Shown one piece after another: positions 8,908 through 42,821 of a stretch of 64,000 bases of DNA; positions within the stretch are counted from its first letter, which is position 1; the number at the start of each line of letters is the position of its first letter. Below the pieces are notes generated by a model, which worked only from the letters and a program-made list of their open reading frames with translations, ran no database searches and had not been told where the DNA came from. Both the position numbers and the translations under genes were made by a program. Source of the stretch: Thermodesulfovibrio sp. 3462-1 (GTDB lineage Bacteria; Nitrospirota; Thermodesulfovibrionia; Thermodesulfovibrionales; Thermodesulfovibrionaceae); contig NZ_CP144374.1 of NCBI RefSeq assembly GCF_040451425.1, positions 868,001 to 932,000 of the forward strand. The letters run 5' to 3'.

Positions 8908-9673
8908 AAAGCATTTTCCTTAAGTGAGAATGTCCTGTTTCTGGAGGATAAAATTCATTGTCAAGCTTTAATCCTATAGGATTTCCCATCTTTGTAAGCT
9001 CAATTAAAGCATAGGTTGTTTTACTGATTTTTTCTTCAAGGTTACCTGAAAAATCGCTTAAATTAACAACTACAGGGTTTCCTGCAGGAGGTGAAAACTC
9101 TTTTGTTTTAAGAGAAGATGTTTTAGCAGTTGCTTTCCAGTGGATGTATTTTAGGGGATCTCCATGACTGTAAGCTCTCACTCCAGTGACTTCACCTTCA
9201 TATGATTTTCCTTTGGAAATAGTTGAATCTATCTTTGCTTTTCCTTCTGCAATCAAAAAGGATATATCACATTTTAAAGGATAGGGAAATACTGTAAATT
9301 CAAGGTTTACTGGAAGAGCTCTTGTTCTTCTAAAGAAATAAAAGGGAAAGTATGATGAAATTATTATTTCATTGATAGTATGTTTGCCTCTTTCAGGAAA
9401 TGTTAAATTTACAATAAAAATTTTTTCTCCTTTCAGGTAAGAAATAACTGCTTCCTCATTAAAAACTTTGATTCTTAAAAGAAAAAGTCCGAAAAAATAT
9501 TTATTTTTTGCTCTTATTCTGAAACTTGCAGGTCTTAAGGCAAAGATATCCTTTGGAAGCAATATGGAAAGTTCAATATTTTTTTGATTAAAAAAGGAAA
9601 CAATACCACTCAAAGCCATAATACTCAAGAGAAAAGAAACTATCAAAAACAATAGATTGTTTCCTGTATTCAC
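8879..9673 (-). CDS. DUF58 domain-containing protein
   Basis: At least 264 residues with two N-terminal hydrophobic segments, then a soluble region with the DUF58 signature GDPLKYIHWKATAKTSSL near residue 170. Family members are partners of MoxR ATPases and TgpA transglutaminases, and all three are adjacent here. The start is uncertain. GTG at 9673 is the first standard start in frame, but the same frame stays open upstream and encodes GWIYIAITLLIGFGA, which looks like the family's usual first membrane helix. No ATG, GTG or TTG is available for that extension; ATT (9730-9728) or GTA (9736-9734), next to the moxR stop, are the only candidates. The protein may really be about 19-21 residues longer. 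Confidence 0.85.
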   Translation of the reverse strand: MNTGNNLLFLIVSFLLSIMALSGIVSFFNQKNIELSILLPKDIFALRPASFRIRAKNKYFFGLFLLRIKVFNEEAVISYLKGEKIFIVNLTFPERGKHTINEIIISSYFPFYFFRRTRALPVNLEFTVFPYPLKCDISFLIAEGKAKIDSTISKGKSYEGEVTGVRAYSHGDPLKYIHWKATAKTSSLKTKEFSPPAGNPVVVNLSDFSGNLEEKISKTTYALIELTKMGNPIGLKLDNEFYPPETGHSHLRKMLYALAVYKSK

Positions 9674-9732
9674 TGCTCCAAAGCCTATTAAAAGAGTGAT
9701 TGCAATATATATCCAGCCAGTATTTGTAATTT

Positions 9733-10662
9733 TTACGGTGGAGTTGAAATATTTTGCAAGATTGATGATATCACCTCTTGTTTTGATGTTTCCTCTTCTC
9801 TAAGTATAACGCGATGAGGCACCACAAAGGGAATCATTTCTTTTACATCTTCGGGAATTACATAGTCTCTTCCACTAAAATATGCATAGGCTTTTGCAGT
9901 AACAGTAATTGCCAGAGCAGCTCTTGTAGAAATGCCTAAAAGAATTCGGCTATCCTGTCTTGTAGCGTGAGCAAAATCAATAATCCAGTTAATGATTTTT
10001 TCAGAGATATAAATCTGCTTTATTTCATTCTGAATTTTTATTATTTCTTCTTTTTCAATGGCAGGACTAAGTTTATATAAATTTTCTCTTGAACTTCCTT
10101 CTTTAAGAATTTGCTTTTCTGATTCCCTGTCTGGATAACCAATGCTTATTTTCATCATAAATCTGTCAAGCTGGCTTTCAGGCAGAGGAAATGTTCCATA
10201 AATTTCAATTGGATTCTGGGTTGCGATTACAAAAAATGGCTTTGGAAGTTTAAAGGTTTTTCCATCAACTGTAACCTGTTCTTCTGCCATTGCTTCAAGA
10301 AGAGCAGACTGAGTTTTTGGTGTTGCCCTGTTTATTTCGTCTACCAAAACAATGTTATTAAAAATTGGACCGGGTTTGAACTCAAAATCAGAAGTATTCT
10401 TACTGTAAATTGAAAGCCCTGTAATGTCTGTTGGAAGAAGATCATTTGTGCATTGAATTCTGCCAAAGCTTAAATTTAAAGCTTTTGACAGAGCGATAGC
10501 CAAAGAGGTTTTACCAAGTCCTGGAAAATCCTCTATAAGAAGATGCCCTTTTGAAAATATGGCAATTAAAGAAAGAATGATCGCCTTTTCTTTACCCTGA
10601 AGGCAACTTTGAAGATTTTCAACAACCTGAAGAATTTTTTGATTCTTTATTTTTCCAATCAT
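9733..10662 (-). CDS. MoxR-family AAA+ ATPase
   Basis: A 309-residue cytosolic AAA+ ATPase. Walker A is GLGKTSLA near residue 48, Walker B is VLVDEINRATPKTQSALLEAM, sensor-1 is FVIATQNPIE, followed by LPESQLDRFMM. MoxR ATPases act as chaperone-like factors maturing partner proteins, here probably the DUF58 and transglutaminase products encoded directly downstream. The ATG lies immediately after a strong hairpin (10663-10687) and has no conventional Shine-Dalgarno at normal spacing; the only purine-rich run (GAGGGGG) is buried in the 5' arm of that hairpin. Its stop codon overlaps the presumed coding start of the DUF58 gene. Confidence 0.94.
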   Translation of the reverse strand: MIGKIKNQKILQVVENLQSCLQGKEKAIILSLIAIFSKGHLLIEDFPGLGKTSLAIALSKALNLSFGRIQCTNDLLPTDITGLSIYSKNTSDFEFKPGPIFNNIVLVDEINRATPKTQSALLEAMAEEQVTVDGKTFKLPKPFFVIATQNPIEIYGTFPLPESQLDRFMMKISIGYPDRESEKQILKEGSSRENLYKLSPAIEKEEIIKIQNEIKQIYISEKIINWIIDFAHATRQDSRILLGISTRAALAITVTAKAYAYFSGRDYVIPEDVKEMIPFVVPHRVILREEETSKQEVISSILQNISTPP

Positions 10663-10687
10663 AAAGAGGGGGATTAACCCCCTCTTT
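10663..10687 (-). terminator. GC-rich hairpin between ppaC and moxR
   Basis: A perfect 10-bp stem (AAAGAGGGGG / CCCCCTCTTT) with a 5-base loop fills the gap between the ppaC stop and the moxR ATG. On the minus strand only three T follow before the ATG, so termination would be imperfect. The same hairpin holds the only Shine-Dalgarno-like run of moxR, so it could act as terminator, attenuator or translation control. Confidence 0.6.
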
Positions 10688-10691
10688 TATT

Positions 10692-11591
10692 TTAACCTTC
10701 CAGATAAACCTTTTCAACAGGTGGTGCTACCTGTTTTTTACGGGACATTACACCGGGGAGCCATACAGAAGGACCGCTTACTTTAACATTAAAGGCTTTT
10801 TCAATTATTGCAGAATTGCCAACATAATAAAGTTCTGTTCCTTCTTTTATAATGTCAGTTGCCATAAATATTACCATGTCATAGCCTTTGCTGTTTTTAA
10901 GCTCATTAAGATACTTAACAAATTCATCCTTGCGCTCATAAACTTCTTCAATATCAACAACTTCTGTCTGACCAATGCCAACTTTTTTACCCTTAAAGTC
11001 ATAATCTTTGAAGTCAACATGAACAACATCAGCAACTGGTTTCCCTTTAATGCTTGCCTTTGCCTTTTTGAGATCAACTCCAAATTTTGTAATGTCTGAA
11101 ACTCCTGCTACTTGGGCAAGCTCCTGAGCTATTTTTTTGTCTTCTTCAGTAGTTGTTGGAGATTTGAAGATAACTGTATCAGAGAGAATTGCACTTAGAA
11201 GCAATCCAGCATATGTTTTGTTTGCTTTTACTTCATTGGGAAACATTTTTGCAATAACTGTTGCTGTGCTTCCAACAGGCTCAACATGAATAAAGATTGG
11301 ATCAGGATAATTAAAATTCATCTTGTGATGGTCAATGATTGCAAGTATTTTTTCTGCTCCATCAACCCTCTGACCAGGCTCATTATGATCCACTAATACA
11401 AGTGTTTTACCAGAGGCATTTTCTAAAATTTCAGGTGCAGCAACTCCAAATTGTTTTAATGCAAACTCTGTTTCTTCATTAATTGGTCCTGCTGTTGCTG
11501 GCTTGTAACCTTTAATCCCTGCATAAACAATCGCTGAACACACTGTGTCTGTGTCTGGTGCCTTATGGCCGATGACATAAATATCACTCAT
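10692..11591 (-). CDS. ppaC: Manganese-dependent inorganic pyrophosphatase (family II)
   Basis: A 299-residue DHH-superfamily phosphoesterase that hydrolyses pyrophosphate. Metal-binding motifs are visible: VIGHKAPDTDTVCSA near the N terminus, VLVDHNEPG (~residue 68) and the DHH motif IIDHHKMNF (~90). The C-terminal DHHA2 domain carries the substrate-binding SRKKQ segment near the end. It has no CBS or DRTGG regulatory insert. It has a good Shine-Dalgarno (AAGGAGGGG) and stands between folK and moxR on the same strand, with a hairpin after its stop. In a sulfate reducer such an enzyme would help pull ATP sulfurylase forward, an inference from physiology rather than from the sequence. Confidence 0.94.
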   Translation of the reverse strand: MSDIYVIGHKAPDTDTVCSAIVYAGIKGYKPATAGPINEETEFALKQFGVAAPEILENASGKTLVLVDHNEPGQRVDGAEKILAIIDHHKMNFNYPDPIFIHVEPVGSTATVIAKMFPNEVKANKTYAGLLLSAILSDTVIFKSPTTTEEDKKIAQELAQVAGVSDITKFGVDLKKAKASIKGKPVADVVHVDFKDYDFKGKKVGIGQTEVVDIEEVYERKDEFVKYLNELKNSKGYDMVIFMATDIIKEGTELYYVGNSAIIEKAFNVKVSGPSVWLPGVMSRKKQVAPPVEKVYLEG

Positions 11592-17412: not shown

Positions 17413-17515
17413 TGAGGAACTGTATAAAATTTTGAGGAAAAATTTATCTGATATTGAAATTTTTATCAAAGAAATAAAAAATTTTATAGCAGCTTACAGG
17501 AATATTATTCATTAA
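17405..17515 (+). CDS. Possible 36-residue ORF coupled to secA
   Basis: An ATG at 17405 overlaps the last codons of secA in another frame and opens 36 codons ([19 protein letters not shown]...) ending TAA at 17515. The predicted peptide is a charged amphipathic helix. It overlaps the 3' end of the convergent cupin gene by 11 bases. It may be a coupled small protein, a remnant of a longer gene, or chance. There is no independent ribosome-binding site. Confidence 0.2.
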
Positions 17516-17951
17516 TTTCAACAGGTTTATCCCGCTGAGAATCAACAATACATAGGAATCCAAAAGGCTCCTTAAAAGGATTAATTAGCTGATGTATCTC
17601 ATTAGGTGCTATGTAGAGTATATCAAGATATTTTAAAATGTAATTTTTTTTACCAAGACGCACTTTCCCTTTTCCCTTTAGACATATAACAACATGGGAA
17701 TGTTTATGATACTCAAGAGAGGAGCATCCACCAGGGGCTATTTCAAAATATCTAAGCTCAAATTTAATTGAATCAGATTTTATTAAAGGAAATCTTTCAA
17801 TAGAAATCCAGTTTCCCTTTTTATCTTTATATGGAAGGCTTTTTATTCCCTGCCATGCTCCATTTTTAAATCTAATTATTTTACTTTTTTTTATTTTTTT
17901 TACTGAAGGCAGTTCACAAAGATATTTTTGTTGCTTTTTTTTCTTATCCAT
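17505..17951 (-). CDS. Cupin-domain protein
   Basis: A 148-residue protein with a lysine-rich N terminus and a C-terminal single cupin barrel: the first motif is around GGCSSLEYHKHSHVVICLKGKGKVRLG (His residues as likely metal ligands) and the second is YIAPNEIHQLINP. Small cupins of this type bind a metal and a small ligand; the substrate is unknown. The start is the ATG at 17951. A longer open frame reaches 18059 but includes the AT-rich promoter region and runs into the chemoreceptor start, so I reject it. No Shine-Dalgarno is present; TATAAA lies six bases before the ATG. Confidence 0.8.
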   Translation of the reverse strand: MDKKKKQQKYLCELPSVKKIKKSKIIRFKNGAWQGIKSLPYKDKKGNWISIERFPLIKSDSIKFELRYFEIAPGGCSSLEYHKHSHVVICLKGKGKVRLGKKNYILKYLDILYIAPNEIHQLINPFKEPFGFLCIVDSQRDKPVEINE

Positions 17952-17957
17952 GTTATA

Positions 17958-17963
17958 TTTATA
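17958..17963 (-). promoter_or_regulatory. Candidate -10 box of the cupin gene (leaderless-type)
   Basis: The minus strand reads TATAAA, then six bases (TATAAC), then the ATG at 17951, with no Shine-Dalgarno. The surrounding sequence is very AT-rich, which lowers confidence. Confidence 0.35.
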
Positions 17964-18057
17964 TCCGTTATATATAATTATAGTCCAAATTTGAAAAATA
18001 TCCCAAATTATAAGATTATGAGACTGTGCAATAAAAAAGAAATAAAGGGGAGGGAGC

Positions 18058-20040
18058 ATGTTTAAGAAAATCCAAAATTTAATGGGTTCTTTTTCATTGA
18101 GTAAAAAAATATTTATTTTTTCAATGATATCAATTCTTATAGTTTATTCTGCGGTTGCTTTTGTTATTTATTTACAAACAAAATCAAAAATTGAAAATTA
18201 CAATGTTAATGCTCTGAAGCGTGAGGTAAATTTTGTAAAGGAGCAGATTGCCTGTTTTGATGAAGCTGCTAAGGATTCTGCTGAAAAGTTCATGAAGATT
18301 TTTCAAAGTATGCTCCCGCAGGGTCCGGCTGCAATTAAGCCGGATAATTCAATTCCAGACAAGTTTACAGCACTTACAGGTGGTTCAGTTGCAACAATAT
18401 TTAAAAGACAGGGCGATGATTTTTTAAGAATTGCTACATCACTTAAAAAAGAGGATGGTACAAGAGCAGTTGGAACAACTCTTGACAGAAATCATCCAGC
18501 CTATCAATTGCTTTTAAAAGGTGAAACCTATATTGGTAAAGCAACACTTTTTGGAAAAGATTACATGACAAAATATGTTCCTGTTAAGGATGCATCCGGC
18601 AGTGTAGTAGGAGTTTTATTCATAGGATTTGATATAACAAAAACAATGAAACATCTTAAAGATTTTATTCGTTCCATTAAAGTTGGAAAAACTGGTTATA
18701 TGTATGTTCTTGATGGAAAAGGCACACTTATAGTGCATCCTGCCTTAGAAGGTAAAAACATGATAGATTCAAAAGATGCTAAAGGAAGAGAGTTTATAAA
18801 AGAAATTGTTGAGAAAAAAGAAGGAGTAATTTATTATCCATGGAAAAATCCAGGAGAAACCTCTGCAAGACAGAAAGTTGTTGCCTATACAAATTATCCT
18901 TCATGGGGATGGATAATTGCCTCAGGAAGTTATGTTGAAGATATAGCAAGCGAGGTAGCTTATATAAGAAATCTTATGTGGGCTGTAAATATAATCGCTG
19001 CAATAGCAGTAGCCTTGTTAATATTTGTTGTAACACAGAGGGCATTAAAGCCTATACCTGACATGGCACAAAAGCTTGAAGAAGTTGCAAAAGGAGATTT
19101 CAGCACAATAGGATTTGGTAAAGGTTACAGAACAAGAAAAGATGAAGTTGGCCTTATTGCAAGGTCTGTTATAAAAGTGGAAGAGTTTACACAGCAACTT
19201 GTCCGAAATATTAAAAATTCAGCATCAATACTTCAGTCGGTAATCGGTGCACTGGAGGCAAATATTGAGAATGTCAAAGCAAAAACAAATGAGCAAACTT
19301 CACAGGCACATCAGATTGCAACTGCTGCTGAGCAGATGAGTCAGACAATAACAGACATTGCAAAAAATGCTGCATTAGCCTCTGATCTTGCAACTGAAAG
19401 TATGAATGTAGCAAAAGAAGGGCAGGGTCTTGCTGAGAATTCAATGAAAACAGTTCAATCAGCAAATCGTTCAACAGTGGAGCTTAAAAAGACTATAAAT
19501 GCTTTAAACACCAGAGTTGAAGAAATTGGAGATATTGTTACAGTTATTAAAGACATTGCTGATCAAACAAATCTTCTTGCTTTGAATGCAGCAATTGAAG
19601 CAGCAAGGGCAGGTGAGCAAGGTCGCGGGTTTGCAGTAGTTGCTGATGAGGTAAGAAAACTTGCAGAGCGAACAATTAAAGCAACTGAAGAAATAGCACA
19701 GAAAATAACTGCAGTTCAGACTGAATCAAAAGAAAGTTTAAAAAGCATGGATGTCACTGCCCGTGAAGTAGCCGAAGCCCTGAAAGCATTAAATGAAGTA
19801 AAAAAATCATTAAATAAAATTGCTGAGCATTCTTTAAAGGTAAAAGATCAGATAACACAGATAGCAACTGCAACAGAAGAGCAATCGTCAGCCTCTGATG
19901 AAGTTGCCCGTTCAGCAGAGCGTTCAAGCATGCTTGCACAGGAAGTGAAAAATACAACAGAGGCGGTGGTACAGGAAGTTGAAAATCTGAATGATGTAAT
20001 AAAAAGGCTTGCAGAGGCAATTAGAGGTGTAAAAGTTTAG
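18058..20040 (+). CDS. Methyl-accepting chemotaxis protein with periplasmic Cache domain
   Basis: A 660-residue chemoreceptor. A transmembrane helix at ~18-40 is followed by a periplasmic sensor of the Cache type (~45-300, with [28 protein letters not shown] and [19 protein letters not shown]), a second helix (~303-326), a HAMP linker (~327-385) and a cytoplasmic signalling coiled coil. The hairpin tip that contacts CheA/CheW is visible as [20 protein letters not shown] followed by [18 protein letters not shown]. There is no C-terminal CheR-docking pentapeptide. The ligand is unknown. A strong Shine-Dalgarno (GGGGAGGGAG) precedes the ATG. The next gene starts on its stop codon, an unusual pairing with an alcohol dehydrogenase. 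Confidence 0.95.
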
Positions 20041-31199: not shown

Positions 31200-31850
31200 A
31201 TGCAAATATTTTTAGACACAGCAGAAATTGAAGCAATAAGAAGATGGGCAGTTACAGGAGTGGTTGATGGAGTTACAACAAATCCTACTTTGTTAGCCAA
31301 GGCAGGAGCTAAGGATGTAAAAAGCGTTATAAAAGAAATATCAAGCCTTGTGCGTGAACCTGTAAGCGTTGAAGTAATATCAACAGATGCTGAAGGAATG
31401 ATAAGAGAAGCTCGTGAGTATGCTTCATGGGGATTTAATATTGCAGTTAAAATTCCTATGACAGAACAAGGAATGAAAGCTGTAAATGTTCTTTCAAAGG
31501 AAGGAATTAAAACAAATGTTACCCTTATTTTCTCAACAAATCAAGGAATTATTGCAGCAAAAGCTGGAGCTACTTATGTAAGTCCTTTTATTGGAAGGCT
31601 TGATGACATTTCTCATGATGGATTAACTATTGTTCGAGAATTGGCAGAAATATTCAGAATTTATAATTTTACAACAAAGATAATTGCTGCAAGCATTCGT
31701 CATCCAATTCATGTCGTAGAAAGTGCTCTTGCTGGTGCTCATATTGCTACCATTCCGCCAAAGGTTCTTGAAAGCATGTTTAAACATCCGCTTACAGATA
31801 TAGGTATTGAAAGATTTTTAAAAGACTGGGAAAGTCTTCATAAAAAATAA
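31200..31850 (+). CDS. tal: Transaldolase (fructose-6-phosphate aldolase/small transaldolase type)
   Basis: A 216-residue TIM-barrel Schiff-base enzyme of the short transaldolase subfamily. It moves a dihydroxyacetone unit between fructose 6-phosphate and erythrose 4-phosphate. The N terminus [11 protein letters not shown], the [11 protein letters not shown] segment, the catalytic lysine (Lys84) in [10 protein letters not shown], and SPFIGRLDD are typical. The open frame is intact. It is the first gene of the operon, behind the sigma-54 promoter, with AAAGGAGG upstream. In the transaldolase form of the Calvin cycle it replaces sedoheptulose bisphosphatase chemistry; without carbon fixation it still serves the non-oxidative pentose-phosphate pathway. 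Confidence 0.93.
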
Positions 31851-31866: not shown

Positions 31867-33150
31867 ATGAAGATGAAGTATATTGATTTTTTAGAAATTG
31901 GATACATTCCAAGAGAAAGTGATGTTTTAGCTGCATTTTATGTAGAGCCAGCAGAAGATGTAACTGTAGAAGAAGCAGCAGGAGCTGTTGCTTCAGAAAG
32001 TTCAATTGGCACCTGGACAGACCTTGCAACTATGAAACAAAGCATATGGGACGAATTAAGAGCAAAAGTTTATGCAATAGAGGACAATGTTGTGTATATA
32101 GCTTATCCTGAGGCACTTTTTGAACCAAGCAATATCCCTCAATTTTTAAGCAGCATTGCAGGAAATGTTTTTGGAATGAAAGCAGTTAAGGCTTTAAGAC
32201 TACTTGACATACGGGTAACTTCAATTTTTACAAAACATCTTCCAGGTCCTGCTTTTGGAGTTAGTGGCGTAAGAGATGTTTTAAATGTAAAGCACAGACC
32301 ACTTATTGGCACAATTGTGAAACCAAAACTCGGGCTTTCACCGAAAGAGCAGGCAGAAGTTGTATACAACTCTCTTGCTGGAGGACTTGATCTTGTAAAG
32401 GATGATGAAAATCTTACACATCAAGTTTTTTCAAACTTTGAAGAAAGAGTTTTACGGTGTCTTGAAGCAGTGCAAAAAGCAGAAAAGGAAACAGGAGAGA
32501 AAAAGGCTTATTTGCCCAATATCACTGCTCCTACTGAGGAAATGCTGAGAAGGGCTCAGTTTGTGAAAAACAATGGTGGAACCTATGTAATGGTTGATAT
32601 TGTTACAGCAGGATTTTCAGGACTGCAAGCTGTAAGGAATGCTAATTTAGGACTAATAATTCATGCTCACAGAGCAATGTATGCAAGTTTTGCGCGTCCT
32701 AAGAATCATGGAATTCACATGCTTGTTTTAGCAAAGCTTTCAAGGCTTGCAGGAGTTGACCAACTTCATATCGGAACAGTGGTAGGAAAAATGGAAGGTG
32801 ACAAAGCTGATGTAATGGTCTGCCATGAAGCTTTAGGAAACTCTGAACACACTCTTAATGCTCCTTTACCTCCTCAAAGTTGGTGAAATATAAAACCTGT
32901 TTTTTCAGTTGCTTCTGGAGGACCTCATCCTGGCCATGTTCCTGATCTTGTCAGTATATTTGGAATTGAGGCTGTGCTTCAGTTTGGTGGAGGAGTTCAT
33001 GGACATCCTGATGGAACTCGCTCAGGAGCAAAAGCTATAAGGGATGCTGCTGAGGCAGCAGTTCAAGGTAAAACTCTGGAAGAAGCAGCAAAGAAAAGTA
33101 AAGAACTGGCAAGAGCCTTAGAAAAATGGAAAGGGGTGGTAATAAAATGA
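31867..33150 (+). pseudogene. rbcL: Form III-type RuBisCO large subunit, interrupted by an in-frame TGA
   Basis: A 427-codon RuBisCO frame. Codon 340 (32884-32886) is TGA, and the frame then stays open for 87 codons to the true stop at 33150. Active-site residues look complete before the stop: Lys152 in VKPKLGL, the carbamylated lysine in LVKDDE (178-181), His268/Arg269 in HAHRAMY and Lys308 in VVGKMEG. After it come [11 protein letters not shown] and [11 protein letters not shown]. The residue replaced by TGA is probably the Gly that usually follows this Trp (GGA to TGA). GGPHPG has Pro where the family has Leu, a possible second lesion. A 339-residue product would lack the C-terminal phosphate-binding loops. 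Archaeal-like form III is my assignment from length and motifs. The stop overlaps the prk start. Confidence 0.9.
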
Positions 33151-33989
33151 AGCCAGTTTTAGTAGGAATTGCAGGAGACAGTGGAAGCGGAAAAAGTACA
33201 TTTGTTAAAACTCTGGCTAATTTGTTAGGAGAAAAAGAAGTAAGAGAAATATGCTTTGATGATTATCACTCCTTAGACAGATAAGAAAGAAAAGCTGTAA
33301 AGATAACCCCGCTTCATCCTCGGGCGAACAATCTTGGGCTGGCTATAGAACATATGTGGCATCTTAAACAAGGTAAAAAAATTTTAAAACCTGTATATGA
33401 TCACTCAACTGGAAAATTTGGGGAGACTGAATGGGTATTTCCTGTTCCCTACATAATATGTGAAGGATTGCATACATTTTACTTTAGTGTGCTTGCTGTG
33501 ATCTATGATTTAAAAATTTACTATGACACTGATCTTGAACTAAAAATAATATGGAAAATTCAAAGAGATGTTGTAGAAAGAGGATATTTTGCTGAAAAAG
33601 TAATAGAAGAGATAAGAGAAAGGCAAAAAGACATAAGAAACTTTGTTGAACCTCAGTCTCAATATGCTGACATTTTAATAAAGCTAAAACTGCATTCTAA
33701 TAATTCTATAGCTGTACAGTGGAATGATTCTATAGATGCTCAATGGTTCAAAAAAATTTTAAATGACCCTGATTCCTGGAATGCTGTAACAGAATGGTAT
33801 GGAGGCAAAAAATGGAATGTTTATGAGATAGCTCGACCATTTACAATCGATGAAGCAAAGAAAATATTTAAAATTGATAGTTCTTTCAAAATAAAAGAAA
33901 AAGAGCTTGAACCATATATGCTTGCAGCTGTTTTAGTTGCAAGCATACTTAAACAAATAAGAAATTTGAAAAACGAAAAGGAGGTGTAA
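33147..33989 (+). pseudogene. prk: Phosphoribulokinase, interrupted by an in-frame TAA
   Basis: The frame starts with [18 protein letters not shown] (P-loop at residues 10-18) and continues EICFDDYHSLDR, then TAA at codon 46 (33282-33284), then ERKAVKITPLHPRANN in the same frame to the stop at 33989. Relatives have LDRK at this point, so an AAA-to-TAA change is likely. The rest is recognisable PRK: KPVYDHSTG, CEGLHTFY (relatives usually have EGLHP) and KIQRDVVERGY. The enzyme would make ribulose 1,5-bisphosphate for RuBisCO. The C-terminal part could only be made by internal re-initiation and would lack the P-loop. The ATG overlaps the rbcL stop (ATGA). Confidence 0.9.
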
Positions 33990-33991
33990 AA

Positions 33992-34840
33992 ATGTTTGAA
34001 ACATTTGAATTAGTTTCAAATTACACAGAATTACAATCAGTAGCTTCAAGAATAAGAAAAAACATAATTGAGATGATTGCTAAGGCAGGCAGTGGACATC
34101 CTGGAGGAAGTCTTTCCTGCGTTGAGATTTTAACAACTCTTTATTTTAAAGTTTTAAGACTTAATCCAGAGTATCCAGAAGACATGGACAGAGATAGATT
34201 CATCCTTTCAAAAGGACATGCTGCACCTGCACTTTATGCAACCTTAGCTGAATTTGGTTTTATTCCAAAAGACTGGCTTCATAGTTTAAGAAAATTTGGA
34301 TCTCCACTTCAGGGACATCCTGATATGAAAAAGGTTCCAGGAATTGAAATATCTACAGGCTCTCTTGGTCAAGGTCTTTCAGTAGGAGTTGGAATGGCTT
34401 TAGGTGCAAAAATTCAAAAACTTGGATATCGTGTTTTTGTCCTTTTAGGAGATGGAGAATGTCAAGAAGGTCAGGTTTGGGAAGCTGCAATGGCTGCATC
34501 GCATTACAAACTTAACAACTTAATTGCAATCATTGACAGAAATAGACTTCAAATTGATGGAAATACAGAAGAGGTTATGTCCTTAGAGCCATTTGTTGAA
34601 AAATGGAAAGCCTTTGGCTGGATGACACTTGAAATAAACGGACATGATTTTGGTGAAATAATTCCGGCATTCCAGATAATTCCATATATATCAAAACCTC
34701 TTGCAATAGTGGCAAATACTGTTAAAGGTAAAGGAGTCTCATTTATGGAAAACAATGTTGACTGGCATGGTAAAGCTCCTAAGGCTGAGGAGGCTGAAGA
34801 GGCTCTTAAAGAACTCCAAGGAGTTTATGAGTTAGTGTAA
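33992..34840 (+). CDS. tktA: Transketolase, N-terminal (TPP-binding) subunit
   Basis: A 282-residue subunit of a split transketolase. TPP/metal-binding signatures are GSGHPGGSLSCVEILTTLYF (~residue 32), STGSLGQGLSVGVGMALG (~122) and LGDGECQEGQVWEAAM (~151), followed by IAIIDRNRLQIDG. It transfers two-carbon ketol units between sugar phosphates in the Calvin and pentose-phosphate pathways. The split into two genes is normal in archaea and many bacteria and is not damage. It has a Shine-Dalgarno (AAAGGAGGTG) and starts 2 bases after the prk stop. The frame is intact. Confidence 0.93.
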   Translation: MFETFELVSNYTELQSVASRIRKNIIEMIAKAGSGHPGGSLSCVEILTTLYFKVLRLNPEYPEDMDRDRFILSKGHAAPALYATLAEFGFIPKDWLHSLRKFGSPLQGHPDMKKVPGIEISTGSLGQGLSVGVGMALGAKIQKLGYRVFVLLGDGECQEGQVWEAAMAASHYKLNNLIAIIDRNRLQIDGNTEEVMSLEPFVEKWKAFGWMTLEINGHDFGEIIPAFQIIPYISKPLAIVANTVKGKGVSFMENNVDWHGKAPKAEEAEEALKELQGVYELV

Positions 34841-34852
34841 GGAGGTAAAAAA

Positions 34853-35794
34853 ATGCAAAAGAAAATAGCTACAAGACAGGCTTATGGTTCAGCTCTTGTG
34901 GATCTGGGCAAAAGCAACCCAAATGTTGTTGTATTGGATGCTGATTTATCAAAGTCAACATATACAGTAAAGTTTGCAAAAGAGTTTCCTGAAAGATTTT
35001 TCAATGCAGGAGTTGCAGAAGCAAATATGATGGGAATGGCAGCAGGTCTTGCTACGTGTGGATTTATAGTGTTTGCCTCCACTTTTGCTATATTTGCAAC
35101 TCAAAGGGCTTTAAACCAGATATTTCAAAGCATTGCATATCCTGAACTGAATGTGAAAATTGCTGCAAGTCATGCAGGAGTGACAGTTGGTGAAGATGGA
35201 GCAAGCCATCAATCTATTGATGATATATCCATAATGAGAGCAATTCCAGGAATGACTGTAATAGTTCCTGCAGACAGCACAGAAGCTTATCAAGCAACAA
35301 TTGCAGCAGCAAGACATTTTGGTCCTGTATATTTAAGACTTAGCAGAGCTCCAACTCCGCAGGTTCTACCTGAAGACTATATATTTAAAATTGGGAAAGC
35401 TTATGTATTAACAGAAGGTTCAGATGTAACTATAGTAGCCTGTGGAACAATGGTGTATGAAGCTATGGTAGCTCGAGAGAAGCTTAATTCTCATGGCATC
35501 ACTGCTGAAGTCATTAATATGAGCACAATAAAACCAATTGACAAAGAAACACTATTAAATTCTGTCAAAAAAACAGGATGTGTTGTAACAGTAGAAGAAC
35601 ACAGCATAATAGGCGGACTTGGTAGTGCAGTATGTGAGGTACTCTCTGAGGAGTATCCATGTCCTGTAAAAAAGATTGGAATTAAAGATCATTTTGGTCA
35701 GTCAGGAAAACCTGAAGAACTTCTTAAACATTATGGTCTTACCTCTGATGATATTGTTAATGGTGTAATAACTTTAAAAGGAGGTAGCCTATGA
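34853..35794 (+). CDS. tktB: Transketolase, C-terminal subunit
   Basis: A 313-residue partner of the preceding gene, holding the pyrimidine-binding and C-terminal domains. Signatures are ATRQAYGSALVDLGKSNPNV, FFNAGVAEANMMGMAAGLA (the catalytic Glu in GVAEANM, ~residue 55), SHAGVTVGEDGASHQSIDD (~102) and VTVEEHSIIGGLGSAVCE (~242). The frame is intact. GGAGG precedes the ATG, and its stop overlaps the gap start (ATGA). With the N-terminal subunit, transaldolase, RpiB and Rpe it completes a non-oxidative pentose-phosphate pathway. Confidence 0.93.
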   Translation: MQKKIATRQAYGSALVDLGKSNPNVVVLDADLSKSTYTVKFAKEFPERFFNAGVAEANMMGMAAGLATCGFIVFASTFAIFATQRALNQIFQSIAYPELNVKIAASHAGVTVGEDGASHQSIDDISIMRAIPGMTVIVPADSTEAYQATIAAARHFGPVYLRLSRAPTPQVLPEDYIFKIGKAYVLTEGSDVTIVACGTMVYEAMVAREKLNSHGITAEVINMSTIKPIDKETLLNSVKKTGCVVTVEEHSIIGGLGSAVCEVLSEEYPCPVKKIGIKDHFGQSGKPEELLKHYGLTSDDIVNGVITLKGGSL

Positions 35795-36271
35795 GGGTTG
35801 CTATAAATGGTTTTGGAAGAATAGGAAGATTGGTAACAAGAATCCTTTTTAATGAAAATCCTGAAAATGTTGATTTAGTTGCTATTAACAGTTCAAAAAA
35901 CACTGAGATGCTTAGCTATCTTCTTAAACATGACTCGGTATATGGAGAATTTAACAATAAAGAAATTTCCTATGACTCTGACCATTTATTGGTAGATGGC
36001 AAAAAAATTAAAATTATTGAGGAAAGACAGGATTTAACAAAGCTTCCGTGGAAAGAACTTGAAATTGACCTTGTTGTTGAGGCTACAGGAAAATTTAAGA
36101 AAAAAGAGGACTCCTACAAACACATTGAAGCAGGGGCTAAAAGAGTTTTAATTACAGCTCCAAGCGCTGAATCAGACATAATGGTTGTTTATGGAGTAAA
36201 TCATGCTGAAATAAAGCCGGAACATAAAATTATTTCAGCTGCCTCTTGCACAACAAACTGTACAGCTCCTA
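35791..36271 (+). pseudogene. gap: Glyceraldehyde-3-phosphate dehydrogenase, 3' half deleted
   Basis: The first 160 codons are normal GAPDH: NAD-binding INGFGRIGRLV, HDSVYGEF, VVEATGKF and the catalytic-cysteine motif SCTTNCTAP (Cys153). Homology stops exactly after this Ala-Pro. The next bases belong to pgk in another frame and the GAPDH frame ends at a TGA at 36298-36300 after ten unrelated residues. About 175 codons, including the whole catalytic domain after the cysteine, are missing. The product cannot be active. The ATG overlaps the tktB stop. Whether another gap gene exists elsewhere cannot be seen here. Confidence 0.92.
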
Positions 36272-37183
36272 ATTCACTTTGTTCCTTCATGAGGAGATGA
36301 AGTTAAAGATACTCTAAAATTGCTAAAAGATGGAGAAATTTTGCTTTTACAAAATTTAAGATTTCATCCTGGAGAAACAAGCAATGATGAAGAGTTTGCA
36401 AAGTTTTTAGCTTCACTGGCAGATATATATGTTTTTGAAGCATTTGGAACTGCTCATAGAAAGCATGCCAGTGTAGTTTCTTTACCTAAATTTTTACCTT
36501 CAATGATTGGATTTTTAACTGAAAAGGAGATAAATACCATAAATGGATTAATAGAGCAAGCAAAAAAACCTTTTTTGTTTATTTTAGGAGGGAAAAAAAT
36601 ATCTGACAAAATAAGAGTTTTTGAAAGACTTCTTGACAAAGCTCAGATAATTTGTATTGGTGGAGCAATGGCTTGTACGTTTTTTAAAGCATTGGGATAC
36701 CAGGTAGGAAAATCTTTTTATGAAGAAGACTCCTTAGATGTAGCAAGAGCAATAATGAAAAAAGCAGAACAGAGGGGATGCAAACTTCTGCTTCCACAGG
36801 ATGTTATGGTTGCAAAAACAATCAGCGACAATACAGAAACAAAGTATGTTTCTCGAGAAGAAATTCCTGAAGACTATCAAGTAGTTGATATAGGTCCAAA
36901 AACATTTGAAATTTATAAAAAGGAAATAAACTCTGCAAATACAATTTTATGGAACGGACCTATGGGAATTTATGAAATTCCTAAATTTTCATGGGGATCA
37001 AAAAGTATAGCCTTAACAATTGGCATGTCTAAAGCAATAAAAATATGCGGAGGAGGAGACACTGCTGAAGTTTTAAATTCTTCAAATTTAATTTCCCATT
37101 TTGATCATATTTCAACTGGAGGTGGAGCTTTTTTAAAGTTTTTAGAGGGTTCTTCATTGCCTGCACTTGAAGCAATTTCTTGA
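36272..37183 (+). pseudogene. pgk: Phosphoglycerate kinase, 5' end deleted
   Basis: Homology resumes at 36272 in the pgk frame as IHFVPS, then TGA (36290-36292), then GDEVKDTLKLLKDG. PGK proteins usually have two residues (such as Cys-Ile) between that segment and GDEV, so a 3-base loss turning TGT-ATA into TGA is plausible. The remaining ~296 codons are well conserved: LLLQNLRFHPGE, AFGTAHRKHASVV, FILGGKKISDK, GGGDTAEVL and HISTGGGAFLKFLEG. The first ~90 residues, including the substrate-binding loops, are gone. The lesion is the other side of the deletion that truncates gap. An internal TTG at 36320 could start a useless fragment. Confidence 0.9.
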
Positions 37184-37204: not shown

Positions 37205-37651
37205 ATGAAAATAGCAATGGCAACAGATCATGCAGCATTTTCTTTAAAAGAAAGAATAAAGCATTATCTTAATAACTTAGAACATGAAGTAATTGATTTT
37301 GGATGTTACAGTGAAGAATCGGCTGATTATCCTTTGTTTATTTCAAAGGCTGCTCGGGCAGTAGCTAATGGACAATGTGAAAGAGGAATTGTAATGTGTG
37401 GTTCAGGGATAGGAGCTTCAATTGTAGCAAACAAAATAAAAGGAATAAGATGTGCTTTGGTTTATACTCCAGAGCTTTGTAGACTTGCAAGACAGCACAA
37501 CGATGCAAATATTATTGCTCTTGCAGGAAGATTTACTGAAGAAGATACAGCAAAAAGAATTGTTGATGTTTTTCTTTTGACTAAATTTGAAGGAGGAAGG
37601 CATTTAGGAAGAGTTAATCAAATAATAGAAATTGAGGAGGGCAGGCTATGA
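37205..37651 (+). CDS. rpiB: Ribose-5-phosphate isomerase B
   Basis: A 148-residue RpiB/LacAB-type isomerase interconverting ribose 5-phosphate and ribulose 5-phosphate. N-terminal MKIAMATDHAAFSLKE, SADYPLFISKAA, the active-site loop GIVMCGSGIGASIVANK (Cys ~residue 66) and RQHNDANIIALAGR are all present. The frame is intact. AAAGGAGG precedes the ATG, and its last codons overlap the aldolase start (ATGA). It serves both the Calvin cycle and ribose supply for nucleotides, which may explain its survival in a decaying operon. Confidence 0.94.
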   Translation: MKIAMATDHAAFSLKERIKHYLNNLEHEVIDFGCYSEESADYPLFISKAARAVANGQCERGIVMCGSGIGASIVANKIKGIRCALVYTPELCRLARQHNDANIIALAGRFTEEDTAKRIVDVFLLTKFEGGRHLGRVNQIIEIEEGRL

Positions 37652-38952
37652 AAGATTTAATTGCTCAAAATATTGAAGAGCTTGATTTTAATGATGTAGA
37701 CAATTTAATCTGGAGTGCTGTATTTTCATCTAAGGAAGAAACCAGAAACAAAGCCAAAGAAATGATATTTCTTAAAGGGCTTCAACATAGAGTGGTTCCT
37801 TCATCAATTCAAAATTTTTATGATGCAATGGGAAGAGGTGAACTCCACAGCATTACTGTTCCTGCTGTGAATATAAGAGGACTTACCTATTACGCAGCAA
37901 GAGCTATTTTTAGATCAGCGATGAAAAACAATGTAGGTTTGATTATATTTGAAATTGCTCGTTCAGAGATTGGTTATACATATCAAAGTCCTTCAGAATA
38001 TACTGCTAATATTATAGCTGCAGCTTTGCGGGAAGGATTTTACTATCCAATTTTTCTACAAGGAGATCATTTTCAGGTCAACAAGAAAAATTTTGAAAAA
38101 AATCATAAAGAAGAGATTGATACCCTTAAAAATTTAATAAAAGAATCGATAAATGCTGGTTTTTTTAACATAGATATATATGCCTCTACAATGGTTGATT
38201 ATTCAAAGAAAACTTTAAAGGAACAACAAAAAGAAAACTTTACTCTTACAGCTATGTTTACAGACTATATAAGAGTGTTGCAGCCAGATGGAATAACAGT
38301 TAGTGTTGGAGGAGAAATAGGTCATATTGGTGGTAAAAATTCTACAGTTGAAGAATTTGAGGCTTTTATGGAAGGTTATTTGAAAACTTTGAATTCTCAA
38401 AAAGGTATCTCAAAAATTAGTGTTCAAACAGGAACAGCTCATGGAGGAATTCCTTTAAAAGACGGAACTCTGGCTCAAGTTAAATTGGATTTTAATGTTT
38501 TAAAATCAATTGGTAGTTTAGCTCAGGAAAAATATGGATTAAGTGGAGCTGTTCAACATGGAGCATCTACTTTACCAATGGAATTATTTGATAAATTTCC
38601 TGAATCTTATACTTCTGAAATTCATCTTGCCACAGGATTTCAAAACACAATGTATGATTTAGCACCAGATTGGTTAAAGAAAGAAATTTATCAATACCTT
38701 CAAGAAAAATGTAAAGAAGAATGGAAACAGGACATGACATATGAGCAGTTCATATACAAAACAAGAAAAAAAGGATTTGGTCCCTTTAAAAAACAGTGGT
38801 GGAGTCTTCCAGAAGATATAAAAAACGCAATAATGGACGAACTTTCAAAAACTTTTGATGTAATATTTGAAAAACTTCGTGTTAAAGATTCAATACAGCT
38901 TGTTAATAAATATATAAATCCTGTAAATGTAAGTTTAAAATTTTTGCAGTAG
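37648..38952 (+). CDS. fba: Class II fructose-bisphosphate aldolase-type protein
   Basis: A 434-residue zinc-dependent aldolase of the long form. Metal and substrate signatures are VPAVNIRGLTYYAARAIF (~residue 73), FLQGDHFQV (~135, catalytic Asp/His), GGEIGHIGGKNSTVEE (~230), VQTGTAHGG (~260) and GAVQHGASTLP (~310, His as zinc ligand). It condenses dihydroxyacetone phosphate with an aldehyde phosphate, giving fructose 1,6-bisphosphate or sedoheptulose 1,7-bisphosphate. The C-terminal ~90 residues are extra compared with E. coli FbaA. The frame is intact, with GAGGAGG upstream. It overlaps rpiB by 4 bases. Confidence 0.87.
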   Translation: MKDLIAQNIEELDFNDVDNLIWSAVFSSKEETRNKAKEMIFLKGLQHRVVPSSIQNFYDAMGRGELHSITVPAVNIRGLTYYAARAIFRSAMKNNVGLIIFEIARSEIGYTYQSPSEYTANIIAAALREGFYYPIFLQGDHFQVNKKNFEKNHKEEIDTLKNLIKESINAGFFNIDIYASTMVDYSKKTLKEQQKENFTLTAMFTDYIRVLQPDGITVSVGGEIGHIGGKNSTVEEFEAFMEGYLKTLNSQKGISKISVQTGTAHGGIPLKDGTLAQVKLDFNVLKSIGSLAQEKYGLSGAVQHGASTLPMELFDKFPESYTSEIHLATGFQNTMYDLAPDWLKKEIYQYLQEKCKEEWKQDMTYEQFIYKTRKKGFGPFKKQWWSLPEDIKNAIMDELSKTFDVIFEKLRVKDSIQLVNKYINPVNVSLKFLQ

Positions 38953-38963
38953 GAGGTTAAAAA

Positions 38964-39927
38964 ATGGAAATAAAAAAAAGGCATAGATTTAAACAGATTT
39001 ATTCTTGAACAAGAAAGAAAACATCCAGAAGCAACTGGCACACTTTCTCATGCTTTAATGGCTATAGAAAATGCAACAAAAATTATTTCTTCATATATAA
39101 GAATGGCTGGACTTGTTGATGTAATTGGCAAAACAGGAAGAATAAATGTGCAGGGTGAAGAAGTTCAAAAATTAGATACCTTGTCAAATAGAGTTCTTGT
39201 AGAACATCTAAGTGGAAGTGGCGATTTTTATGCTGTAGCAAGTGAAGAAATGGAAAATGCTTTATTTCCTGAAGAAGGTAAGGAGGGCAAATATATTATA
39301 GCAGTAGACCCCCTTGATGGTTCTTCTGTAATTGATGCTAATACATCTGTGGGAACAATATTTTCAATCTGGAGAAAAACTTCTTCTGATGAATCAACAT
39401 TTTTACAAGAAGGAAAAAAAATAGTAGCTGCTGGATATGTTATCTATGGAACATCAACCATGCTTGTTTATTCAACCGGAAATGGAGTCTATGGATTTAC
39501 TCTTGATCCAATGGTGGGTACATATTTGCTTTCTCATCCAAATATAAAAATTCCTGACAAAGGCAAGATCTATGGATTTAATGAATCCTATTACAACAAA
39601 TGGGAAGAAAAAATTAGAAAATGCGTAGATTACTTTAAATCAGAAGGATATACTCTTAGGTGGGCTGGAGCAATGGTTACAGATATACACAGAACAATTA
39701 TGAAAGGCGGAATATTTGCCTATCCAATGGTAGGTTCAAAGGCAAAAATAAGACTTCTTTATGAAGCAGCTCCTATGGCTTTTTTAGTTAAACAGGCAGG
39801 TGGATTAGCAACCGATGGAACTGAAAATATTTTAGATATTAAACCCCAGGCTCTACATCAAAGAGTGCCTGTATTTATGGGTAGCCCGGAAGATGTGAAA
39901 AAATGCATGGAGATAATGAACAGATAA
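38964..39927 (+). pseudogene. fbp: Class I fructose-1,6-bisphosphatase, +1 frameshift in an A8 tract
   Basis: A normal start (AGGAGG then ATG at 38964) reads MEIKK and then meets eight A (38972-38979). Seven A would continue as GIDLNRFILEQERKHPEATG in the frame of the remaining gene; eight A shift the frame to a TGA at 39006. Downstream FBPase sequence is complete and conserved: ASEEMEN, VDPLDGSSVIDANTSVGT (metal-binding), TDIHRTIMKGGIFAYP and PMAFLVKQAGG to the stop at 39927. An internal ATG (39058) could start a product lacking the first ~31 residues, including part of the AMP-site/N-terminal helix. Transcriptional slippage on A8 could restore some full-length protein, so this is the mildest lesion in the operon. 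Confidence 0.88.
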
Positions 39928-39928
39928 A

Positions 39929-41201
39929 ATGAGAAAAACAAAGATTGTAGCCACTATAGGGCCCTCATCAGATAAAAAAGAAATAATCTCTCAAATGATT
40001 CAGGCTGGAATGGATGTGGTAAGGCTTAATTTTTCTCATGGAGATCATTTTTACTATGCTCAGGTCATAAAAACGATAAGGGAAGAATCAAATAAGCTTG
40101 GGAAAGCAGTTGCAATATTGCAGGATCTTCAGGGTAGCAAACTAAGAATAAACAACATAAATGGAAAAGAAATTGAACTTACTGAAGGTGAAGAAATAGA
40201 AATGTGATCTGGTGATGGTGTGTCTACTTCAAAAACTCTTTTTGTCCCGTATAAAGATTTGATTTATGAAGTCAAAGAAGGTGATGAAGTCCTGATTGAT
40301 GATGGATTAATAATACTTAAAGTAACTAAAAAACTCAATGACAAAATTTTTGCAATAGTAAAAGAAGGCGGAACTCTTAAACCTAAAAAAGGAATCAGTT
40401 TCCCTAACTTAAATGCAACTTTGAGTTTTACTGACAAAGACAAAGCTGATCTTTTATTTGGCATTAATCTTGATGTAGATTATGTTGCTGTTTCGTTTGT
40501 AAAAAACAAAAATGACTTACTTTTGATAAAACAGTGGGCAAATGAAGAGGGCTTGTTACTTCGGTGTTTCTCTCCCAATTCATGAAGTTCCTGTATATCA
40601 AAAAAAATTAATAGAACTTGCAAATCAGAAGTGTAAAATTGTTATAACCGCAACCCAAATGCTTGAATCAATGAGACAACATTCAAGACCAACCCGTGCT
40701 GAAGCAACTGATGTTGCAAATGCAGTTCTTGATGGAGCAGATGCTTTGATGCTTTCTGCAGAAACAGCAACTGGCAAATATCCAGTAGATGCAGTTAAAA
40801 CAATGAGTTCAATCATAAAATTTACGGAAGAAAATTTATCTCACAGAATTCCTGTTCTTTATAAGGTTGGAAGTTCTTTTTCTGAAGCAATAGCTTCTGG
40901 AGCCGTTGAAGTTGCTCAAGACATCAATGCAAAAGCAATAGTTGTTTTTACAGAGTTTGCATCAACCACAAAAGTGCTTTCAAAATTGCGTCCATCAATG
41001 CCGGTGATTGCTTTTAGTATAAAAGAAAAAACATACAGAAAATTATCTCTTTTTTGGGGGATAATTCCTATGTGGAACAAAAATTTTTCTCTAGAAGAGA
41101 TTGAAAAAACTCTCAAAAATTTAGGTATTGCCAGCAGTTCTGATAAAATAGTAATTGTATCTGGACAGTCAAATACTATAAAATTACACAGAATAGGATG
41201 A
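39929..41201 (+). pseudogene. pyk: Pyruvate kinase, in-frame TGA plus internal deletion
   Basis: The frame starts MRKTKIVATIGPSSDKKE and includes GMDVVRLNFSHGD. Codon 93 (40205-40207) is TGA, after which the frame continues SGDGVSTSKTLF. A second break lies near 40550-40562: KQWANEEG is joined out of frame to FGVSLPIHEVPVYQ. The ~40 residues usually between these (the catalytic Lys/Glu of the AKIE segment and the ARGDL metal site) are missing. The remainder (VITATQMLESM, RPTRAEATDVANAVLDGADALMLS, C-terminal allosteric domain) is conserved to 41201. The enzyme is certainly inactive. Its end overlaps the next gene by 4 bases. Confidence 0.9.
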
Positions 41202-42199
41202 AAGCTATGAAAACACTTGTAAGTATAATAGGAGCTGGTCCAGCAGGACTGGCAACAGCTGTAGAACTAAAGGCAAAAGGAATTGAAGACTTAATTATTT
41301 TTGAAAAAGGCGGAGATATATGTTCAACAATAAGAAAGCTTTATCCTCCACAGAAAAGAGTGGATAAAGTTTTCAAAGGATTACAACTTCAGGCTCAGGG
41401 GATATGTGATTTTCAGACGGAGACAAAAGAAGCTTTTCTTGAGAGAATGCGTAAATATGTAAAAGATTATGAAATTAAAATTAAATTTAATACAAGAATT
41501 GACGGATTAGAAAAACTCAATGATTTTTATGCAATAAAACATGAAAACTTAATAGTGGCTAAGAGTTACATAGTAATATTAGCTATAGGAGTATTTGATA
41601 CTCCTCGAAAGCCTTCTTATCCCATTCCTGAAGAAGTAAAAGATAAAGTATTTTTCAGACTTCCAAAAGAGTTTCCTCAAAATGAAAAAATACTCATTGT
41701 AGGAGGAGGGAACTCAGCAGTAGAGACTGCTTGTGCTCTTTCTGACAGTTGTGAAGTCTTTCTTTCTTACAGAAGAGAAAAACTTTTTCGGGTCAATGAA
41801 GAAAATCTTAAAGAGCTTGAAAAACGACAGAACAAAATTCGTCTTATCCTGGGAAGCGACATTGAGAAACTGGAGCCTGCAAATCAACAAGTTAAAGTAG
41901 TATTTAAAGATGGCTCTGAAGCGATTTTTTCAAAAATTTTTTATTGCCTTGGTGGTAGTGCACCAAAAGATTTTCTTCAAAAAATAGGGATAGAACTCGT
42001 TAATGGAAAACCTAAAATTGACGAATTTGGAGAAAGCAATCTCCAAAGAGTCTTTTTAGTTGGTGATATAGCCACGGAGCGTGGAAGTATTATGTTCGCT
42101 TTTAATTCAGCTTATAAAGTAGTTAAAAGAATTATAGAAAAATACTCAATTAAGGAGGACTGCGGTGGTACTCATAGCACCATCAATTCTTTCAGCTGA
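41198..42199 (+). CDS. YpdA/thioredoxin-reductase-like FAD-NAD(P) oxidoreductase
   Basis: A 333-residue two-dinucleotide-binding flavoprotein. The FAD motif is IIGAGPAGLATAVE near residue 10 and the NAD(P) motif is ILIVGGGNSAVETACALS near 165; VFLVGDIATERGSI (~285) is the second FAD contact. There is no CxxC redox pair, so it is not a classical thioredoxin reductase; it resembles YpdA-type or ferredoxin/flavodoxin-NADP reductases. The start may be the ATG at 41198 (overlapping the pyk stop) or at 41207, which has AGGA 8 bases upstream. The frame is intact. It lies between pyk and rpe, and its last 35 bases overlap the rpe gene. Confidence 0.8.
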   Translation: MKAMKTLVSIIGAGPAGLATAVELKAKGIEDLIIFEKGGDICSTIRKLYPPQKRVDKVFKGLQLQAQGICDFQTETKEAFLERMRKYVKDYEIKIKFNTRIDGLEKLNDFYAIKHENLIVAKSYIVILAIGVFDTPRKPSYPIPEEVKDKVFFRLPKEFPQNEKILIVGGGNSAVETACALSDSCEVFLSYRREKLFRVNEENLKELEKRQNKIRLILGSDIEKLEPANQQVKVVFKDGSEAIFSKIFYCLGGSAPKDFLQKIGIELVNGKPKIDEFGESNLQRVFLVGDIATERGSIMFAFNSAYKVVKRIIEKYSIKEDCGGTHSTINSFS

Positions 42200-42821
42200 T
42201 TTTGGAAGATTGGATGAAGAGATTAAGCTTGCCGAGGAGGCTGGCGTAGATATGATTCATATTGATGTAATGGATGGTCATTTTGTTCCGAATATTACGA
42301 TTGGTCCTTTAGTAGTGGAAGCTGCAAGAAAGGCAACAAATCTTCCTCTGGATGTTCATCTAATGATTACAAATCCTGAAAAATATATATCAGACTTTGT
42401 AAAAGCTGGTGCTCAGTATCTTACAGTTCATGTTGAGGCTTGTGTGCATCTGCACAGAACAGTCTGGCAAATAAAAGAACAAGGCATAAAAGCAGGAGTT
42501 TCACTAAATCCTGCAACATCTTTAACTACAGTAGAGGAGATACTTCAAGATATTGATTTACTATTAATAATGTCAGTTAATCCAGGATTTGGAGGACAAA
42601 ATTTTATACCTTTTTGCATAGATAAAATAAAGAAAGCTAAATCAATGATTCTAAACAAATTTTCCAATGCATTAGTTGAAGTAGACGGTGGAGTAAAGCT
42701 TGAAAATGCCCGTGAAATTACTGAAGCAGGAGCTGACATCCTTGTAATGGGTTCAGCTTTTTTTGGTGAAAAAAATTATAAAGAATTTATGGAAAAACTC
42801 AAAAAAACACTATCAATTTAA
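42165..42821 (+). CDS. rpe: Ribulose-phosphate 3-epimerase
   Basis: A 218-residue TIM-barrel epimerase interconverting ribulose 5-phosphate and xylulose 5-phosphate. Signatures include IAPSILSADFGRLDEEI, the metal-site HIDVMDGHFVPNITIGP (~residue 32), DVHLMITNPEKYI, GVSLNPATS, MSVNPGFGGQNF (~138) and EVDGGVKLENA (~172). It starts with GTG at 42165, supported by AAGGAGG about 7 bases upstream, and overlaps the reductase gene by 35 bases. It is the last gene of the operon and is intact. A weak hairpin follows. Confidence 0.95.
   Translation: MVLIAPSILSADFGRLDEEIKLAEEAGVDMIHIDVMDGHFVPNITIGPLVVEAARKATNLPLDVHLMITNPEKYISDFVKAGAQYLTVHVEACVHLHRTVWQIKEQGIKAGVSLNPATSLTTVEEILQDIDLLLIMSVNPGFGGQNFIPFCIDKIKKAKSMILNKFSNALVEVDGGVKLENAREITEAGADILVMGSAFFGEKNYKEFMEKLKKTLSI

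Follow-up and report, generated by a model that had tools for sequence, protein, structure and literature searches.

A Nonsense Mutation in a Form III RuBisCO Gene and the Probable Decay of a Whole Calvin-Benson-Bassham Cluster in Thermodesulfovibrio

Introduction

How should an in-frame TGA in the middle of a well-conserved form III RuBisCO large subunit gene (rbcL) be read? The gene lies in a 64,000-nucleotide stretch of the genome of a hot-spring Thermodesulfovibrio, hereafter the window, to whose positions the coordinates below refer unless stated otherwise; the features of the gene cluster around rbcL all lie on its forward strand. The codon could be a disabling mutation, a recoded residue, a sequencing artifact, or the end of a shortened protein that is still in use. 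Here, we argue that it is very probably a nonsense mutation that marks rbcL as a pseudogene, within a Calvin-Benson-Bassham cluster the whole of which is in decay.

Results

A Premature TGA Separates rbcL from Its Phosphate-Binding Loops.

The rbcL frame (31867..33150; 427 codons plus stop) is open for 339 codons, meets a TGA at codon 340 (32884..32886), and continues open for a further 87 codons to the TGA at 33148-33150, exactly as the original prediction had described it. Reading the frame anew confirmed these numbers, and a profile search of the genome bore out the accompanying claim that RuBisCO sequence lies on both sides of the stop—i.e., the Pfam RuBisCO_large match covers the whole C-terminal domain (2.1e-96) and crosses the stop, with "1 TGA" inside. 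No second RuBisCO was found by profile search in the 1,818,996-base single-contig genome.

When compared to G002, the closest RuBisCO-bearing genome of the genus (1,935,540 bp), rbcL aligned without gaps over 427 codons at 88.9% nucleotide identity. The G002 gene is uninterrupted over 427 codons and carries GGA at codon 340, so that the window gene, with TGA in place of GGA in an intact orthologue, has the disabling lesion that defines a pseudogene. Because all 87 codons downstream can be aligned gaplessly to the intact G002 gene, a chance open frame downstream of the TGA can be discounted. Membership in form III follows from the intact G002 RuBisCO, which matches TIGR03326 with 566 bits against a cut-off of 497. 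The lost residue had been predicted to be a glycine, changed by a single step from GGA to TGA, and an alignment with form III relatives had been proposed as a check. We ran this alignment, and the glycine holds on the strength of the near relative rather than of family-wide conservation: codon 340 varies across 80 distant form III homologues (Tyr in 28, Gly in 21, other residues in the remainder), which rules out a universal glycine at this position.

The predicted removal of phosphate-binding loops was likewise upheld. The loop-7 (SGG) and loop-8 (GGG) segments follow the TGA and the loop-6 lysine segment, GKMEGD, precedes it; the reading frame up to the stop therefore lacks a complete catalytic domain with loops 6, 7, and 8. 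In addition, codon 353 (32923..32925), which lies in the SGG-x-H phosphate-binding loop (loop 7), encodes Pro in the window and Leu in G002, and the residue is Leu, Val, or Ile in 80 of 80 form III relatives. Leu353Pro is probably a second hit, a missense one beyond the stop, and read-through to a working enzyme would give no reason to expect it.

The TGA Behaves as an Ordinary Stop Codon.

We then considered whether the TGA at codon 340 might be read as selenocysteine or glycine, or simply be read through, to give full-length RuBisCO. The genome does hold a tRNA-Sec gene (genome positions 1312503-1312596), which means that this organism can likely insert selenocysteine at some site or other. 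However, the second element expected of a selenoprotein gene, a SECIS-like hairpin directly after the TGA, was not seen: there was no Rfam match, and no stable hairpin was detected just after the codon (z = +0.75 relative to shuffled sequence). TGA terminates 19 of the 50 intact genes in the window, and RF2 is present, whereas in the code that reads TGA as glycine (code 25) TGA would be unused as a stop and RF2 would be missing; that code is therefore out. Leu353Pro sits downstream of the rbcL stop, and the other lesions of the cluster described below, among them a TAA in the phosphoribulokinase gene and two deleted segments, are beyond repair by any recoding of TGA. Translation through codon 340 thus appears exceedingly improbable, in agreement with the original prediction, and the nonsense mutation remains the preferred reading.

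Two observations on the decoding machinery may be added. The RF2 gene (249-1362 of its stretch, near the contig end) has the programmed frameshift site in its classic form, CTT TGA, and the "1 TAA" recorded for it does not mean that RF2 is broken, since it lies upstream of the frameshift site in a frame that is not used. The tRNA-Sec gene suggests that the organism probably makes selenoproteins elsewhere.

The Cluster Carries at Least Seven Lesions, the rbcL Stop Included.

To place the rbcL stop in context, we called lesions gene by gene against G002, in which the cluster is intact and has an identical gene order; the lesions are known here from assembled sequence. The cluster opens with an intact gene of the transaldolase/fructose-6-phosphate-aldolase family (31200..31850; 216 aa, with equal length in G002), the G002 homologue of which matches TIGR00875 above the cut-off. 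After rbcL comes phosphoribulokinase (prk; 33147..33989), a pseudogene with a premature TAA at codon 46 (33282..33284), where G002 has CAA. The G002 homologue scores above the cut-off for NF005655, and the window gene is the sole match of the PRK type in the genome, with no second copy. The N-terminal (33992..34840) and C-terminal (34853..35794) subunits of transketolase are both intact. They are followed by the remnant of a type I GAPDH (35791..36270), the C-terminal half of which has been lost, together with the N-terminal part of phosphoglycerate kinase (PGK), in a 799-bp deletion relative to G002 (junction at 36270..36271) that fuses GAPDH to PGK. The PGK remnant (36271..37183) carries a premature TGA of its own at 36290-36292.

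Further along lie an open gene that we take, from its sequence, to be an RpiB-like ribose-5-phosphate isomerase (37205..37651) and an intact gene for a 434-aa protein distantly resembling class II aldolases (37648..38952). The resemblance of the latter comes from weak matches of the G002 homologue to TIGR00167/TIGR01859, the best reaching 51 bits where the cut-off is 216, and its product may perhaps serve this variant of the cycle as a divergent aldolase. Class 1 fructose-bisphosphatase (FBPase; 38964..39927; G002 homologue NF006778), the only one of its class in the genome, has gained 1 nt in an A-run near 38972-38981. The insertion puts the first codons out of frame, and the gene is open only downstream of an internal ATG (39058); judging from this frame, FBPase may still be produced from that ATG. 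Pyruvate kinase (39929..41201) is a pseudogene with a TGA at 40205-40207 and a 98-bp deletion at 40562/40563. The cluster closes with two intact genes, an FAD/NAD(P) oxidoreductase-like gene (41198..42199) and a gene that is, judging from its sequence, ribulose-5-phosphate 3-epimerase-like (42165..42821).

In sum, at least seven lesions (four nonsense substitutions, two large deletions, and one indel) affect 6 of the 13 cluster genes; those still open are transaldolase, both transketolase halves, and the RpiB-like, aldolase-like, oxidoreductase, and epimerase-like genes. In contrast, none of the 43 flanking genes in the window was found to be broken, as judged over about 50 kb from ORF lengths against G002; the exceptions in this comparison were ORFs cut by the edges of the compared stretches and a single pair of genes with shorter frames in G002. 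The difference between cluster and flanks has a Fisher p of about 5e-5, calculated with 44 flanking genes instead of 43, a discrepancy of no material effect. The original prediction of an inactivating nonsense mutation in RuBisCO is therefore supported, but it was drawn too narrowly, given the other lesions in the cluster.

The same distribution bears on whether the gene might be intact in the organism and the stop merely an error of sequencing or assembly. An indel in an A-run, such as that in FBPase, is a common type of error and, taken alone, could have arisen in this way. Against an artifact as the general explanation, however, four nonsense substitutions and deletions of 799 and 98 bp are confined to one functional cluster, with none seen in the flanks, and the assembly is a single contig estimated at 99.98% completeness and 0.02% contamination. 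We therefore regard an error as very unlikely and retain the nonsense mutation as our reading.

Two side observations also came from the comparison with G002. The gene pair that is shorter in G002 is a divergent one (17505-20040; 8510-11035 of the G002 stretch compared), encoding 184 and 660 aa in the window and 149 and 582 aa in G002; judging from the sequences, either the pair would have changed in G002 or its start sites would differ. G002 also has a gene of its own (2018-2776 of its stretch), absent from the window, for a 252-aa coiled-coil protein with internal repeats, which is located between the rpe-like and pseudouridine-synthase-like genes.

Second Copies Exist for Several Damaged and Several Intact Genes.

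RuBisCO was found in only 2 of the 16 genomes of the genus, namely the window genome and G002. For PGK, GAPDH, and pyruvate kinase, the window genome has an undamaged second copy elsewhere, and in congeners without RuBisCO these three enzymes are solely of the second-copy kind. Transketolase and transaldolase have second copies elsewhere as well. This does not support the idea that genes of the cluster have survived for want of another copy, and the decay looks random so far. A functional Calvin-Benson-Bassham cycle (transaldolase variant) is not encoded, as RuBisCO and phosphoribulokinase are both interrupted and both single-copy.

Substitution Patterns Point to a Recent Loss.

Between the window and G002, dN/dS was 0.076 for rbcL and 0.081 for prk, compared to 0.062-0.092 for tal, tktN, tktC, and fba, so that no signal of relaxed selection was measurable in the dN/dS of either rbcL or prk. 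As both values fall within the range of their intact neighbors, normal selection would have acted on these genes over most of the period after the divergence of the two species, which suggests that the loss of CO2 fixation is recent.

Conservation of this kind might also be expected if the 339-residue truncated RuBisCO had a new or residual function and were selectively kept, and the low dN/dS of the pre-stop part of rbcL (0.069) could be taken in its favor. Yet the post-stop part, albeit with few sites, is conserved too (0.111), as a stop of recent origin would explain better than selection on a truncated protein. Moreover, the truncation deletes phosphate-binding loops 7 and 8, and phosphoribulokinase, the source of the RuBisCO substrate, is broken as well. 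A retained short protein is thus scarcely credible, and the data are best accounted for by a recent nonsense mutation.

Discussion

Taken together, our results describe the ordinary pseudogenization of a whole pathway. The genes for RuBisCO and phosphoribulokinase, the two enzymes peculiar to the cycle and each present as a single copy, are both cut short, and the additional GAPDH, PGK, and pyruvate kinase genes of the cluster are damaged as well, as is its FBPase gene. Central metabolism could be kept through the undamaged versions of GAPDH, PGK, and pyruvate kinase encoded elsewhere in the genome, but CO2 fixation by the Calvin cycle would no longer be possible, and autotrophic growth has presumably been lost. 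Given how recent the loss appears, there is some chance, albeit a modest one, that natural populations of the species still hold working copies of the cluster; if so, the loss of a pathway could be caught in real time.

The locus offers a clean case in which an entire CO2-fixation pathway is decaying at once in a sulfate reducer, with a close relative that retains the pathway. It also carries a caution for genome annotation. In the window genome, RuBisCO and phosphoribulokinase score far above their profile cut-offs despite the stops, and for this reason matches to these two profiles are not in themselves proof that a genome is autotrophic.

The loss has a counterpart in the literature. Maltseva et al. 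(2024, Syst Appl Microbiol 47:126561), according to the title as cited in PMC12501866, PMC12281834, and PMC12613926, describe two new species, T. autotrophicus as the first autotrophic representative and Thermodesulfovibrio obliviosus as one that "has lost this ability". From that title and its citations, it appears that autotrophy lost with the breakdown of the Calvin cycle has been published already at the species level, and the present instance has probably been described before. The nif genes are reported to be lacking in T. autotrophicus and T. obliviosus and present in strain TK110, which has a chromosome of 1,953,749 bp (PMC12501866); we found nifH in neither the window genome nor G002, and G002 is not TK110. 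From evidence that includes the content of the genus, the broken cluster, and the absence of nifH, the window genome is very likely that of T. obliviosus, and G002 is likely T. autotrophicus.

Set beside these systems, the locus agrees with what the citing literature gives for T. obliviosus 3462-1, of a species described as having lost autotrophy and as lacking nif genes, the window genome likewise having no nifH. It differs from T. autotrophicus 3907-1M and strain TK110, members of the same genus that have a Calvin cycle with form III RubisCO (PMC12501866), in that nearly half of its cluster genes are broken. It also resembles the system of the 2019 PNAS paper, as that work is cited in PMC12501866, in bringing together genes for form III RuBisCO, phosphoribulokinase, transaldolase, and transketolase, and it departs from the system so cited in that the version carried by the window is non-functional.
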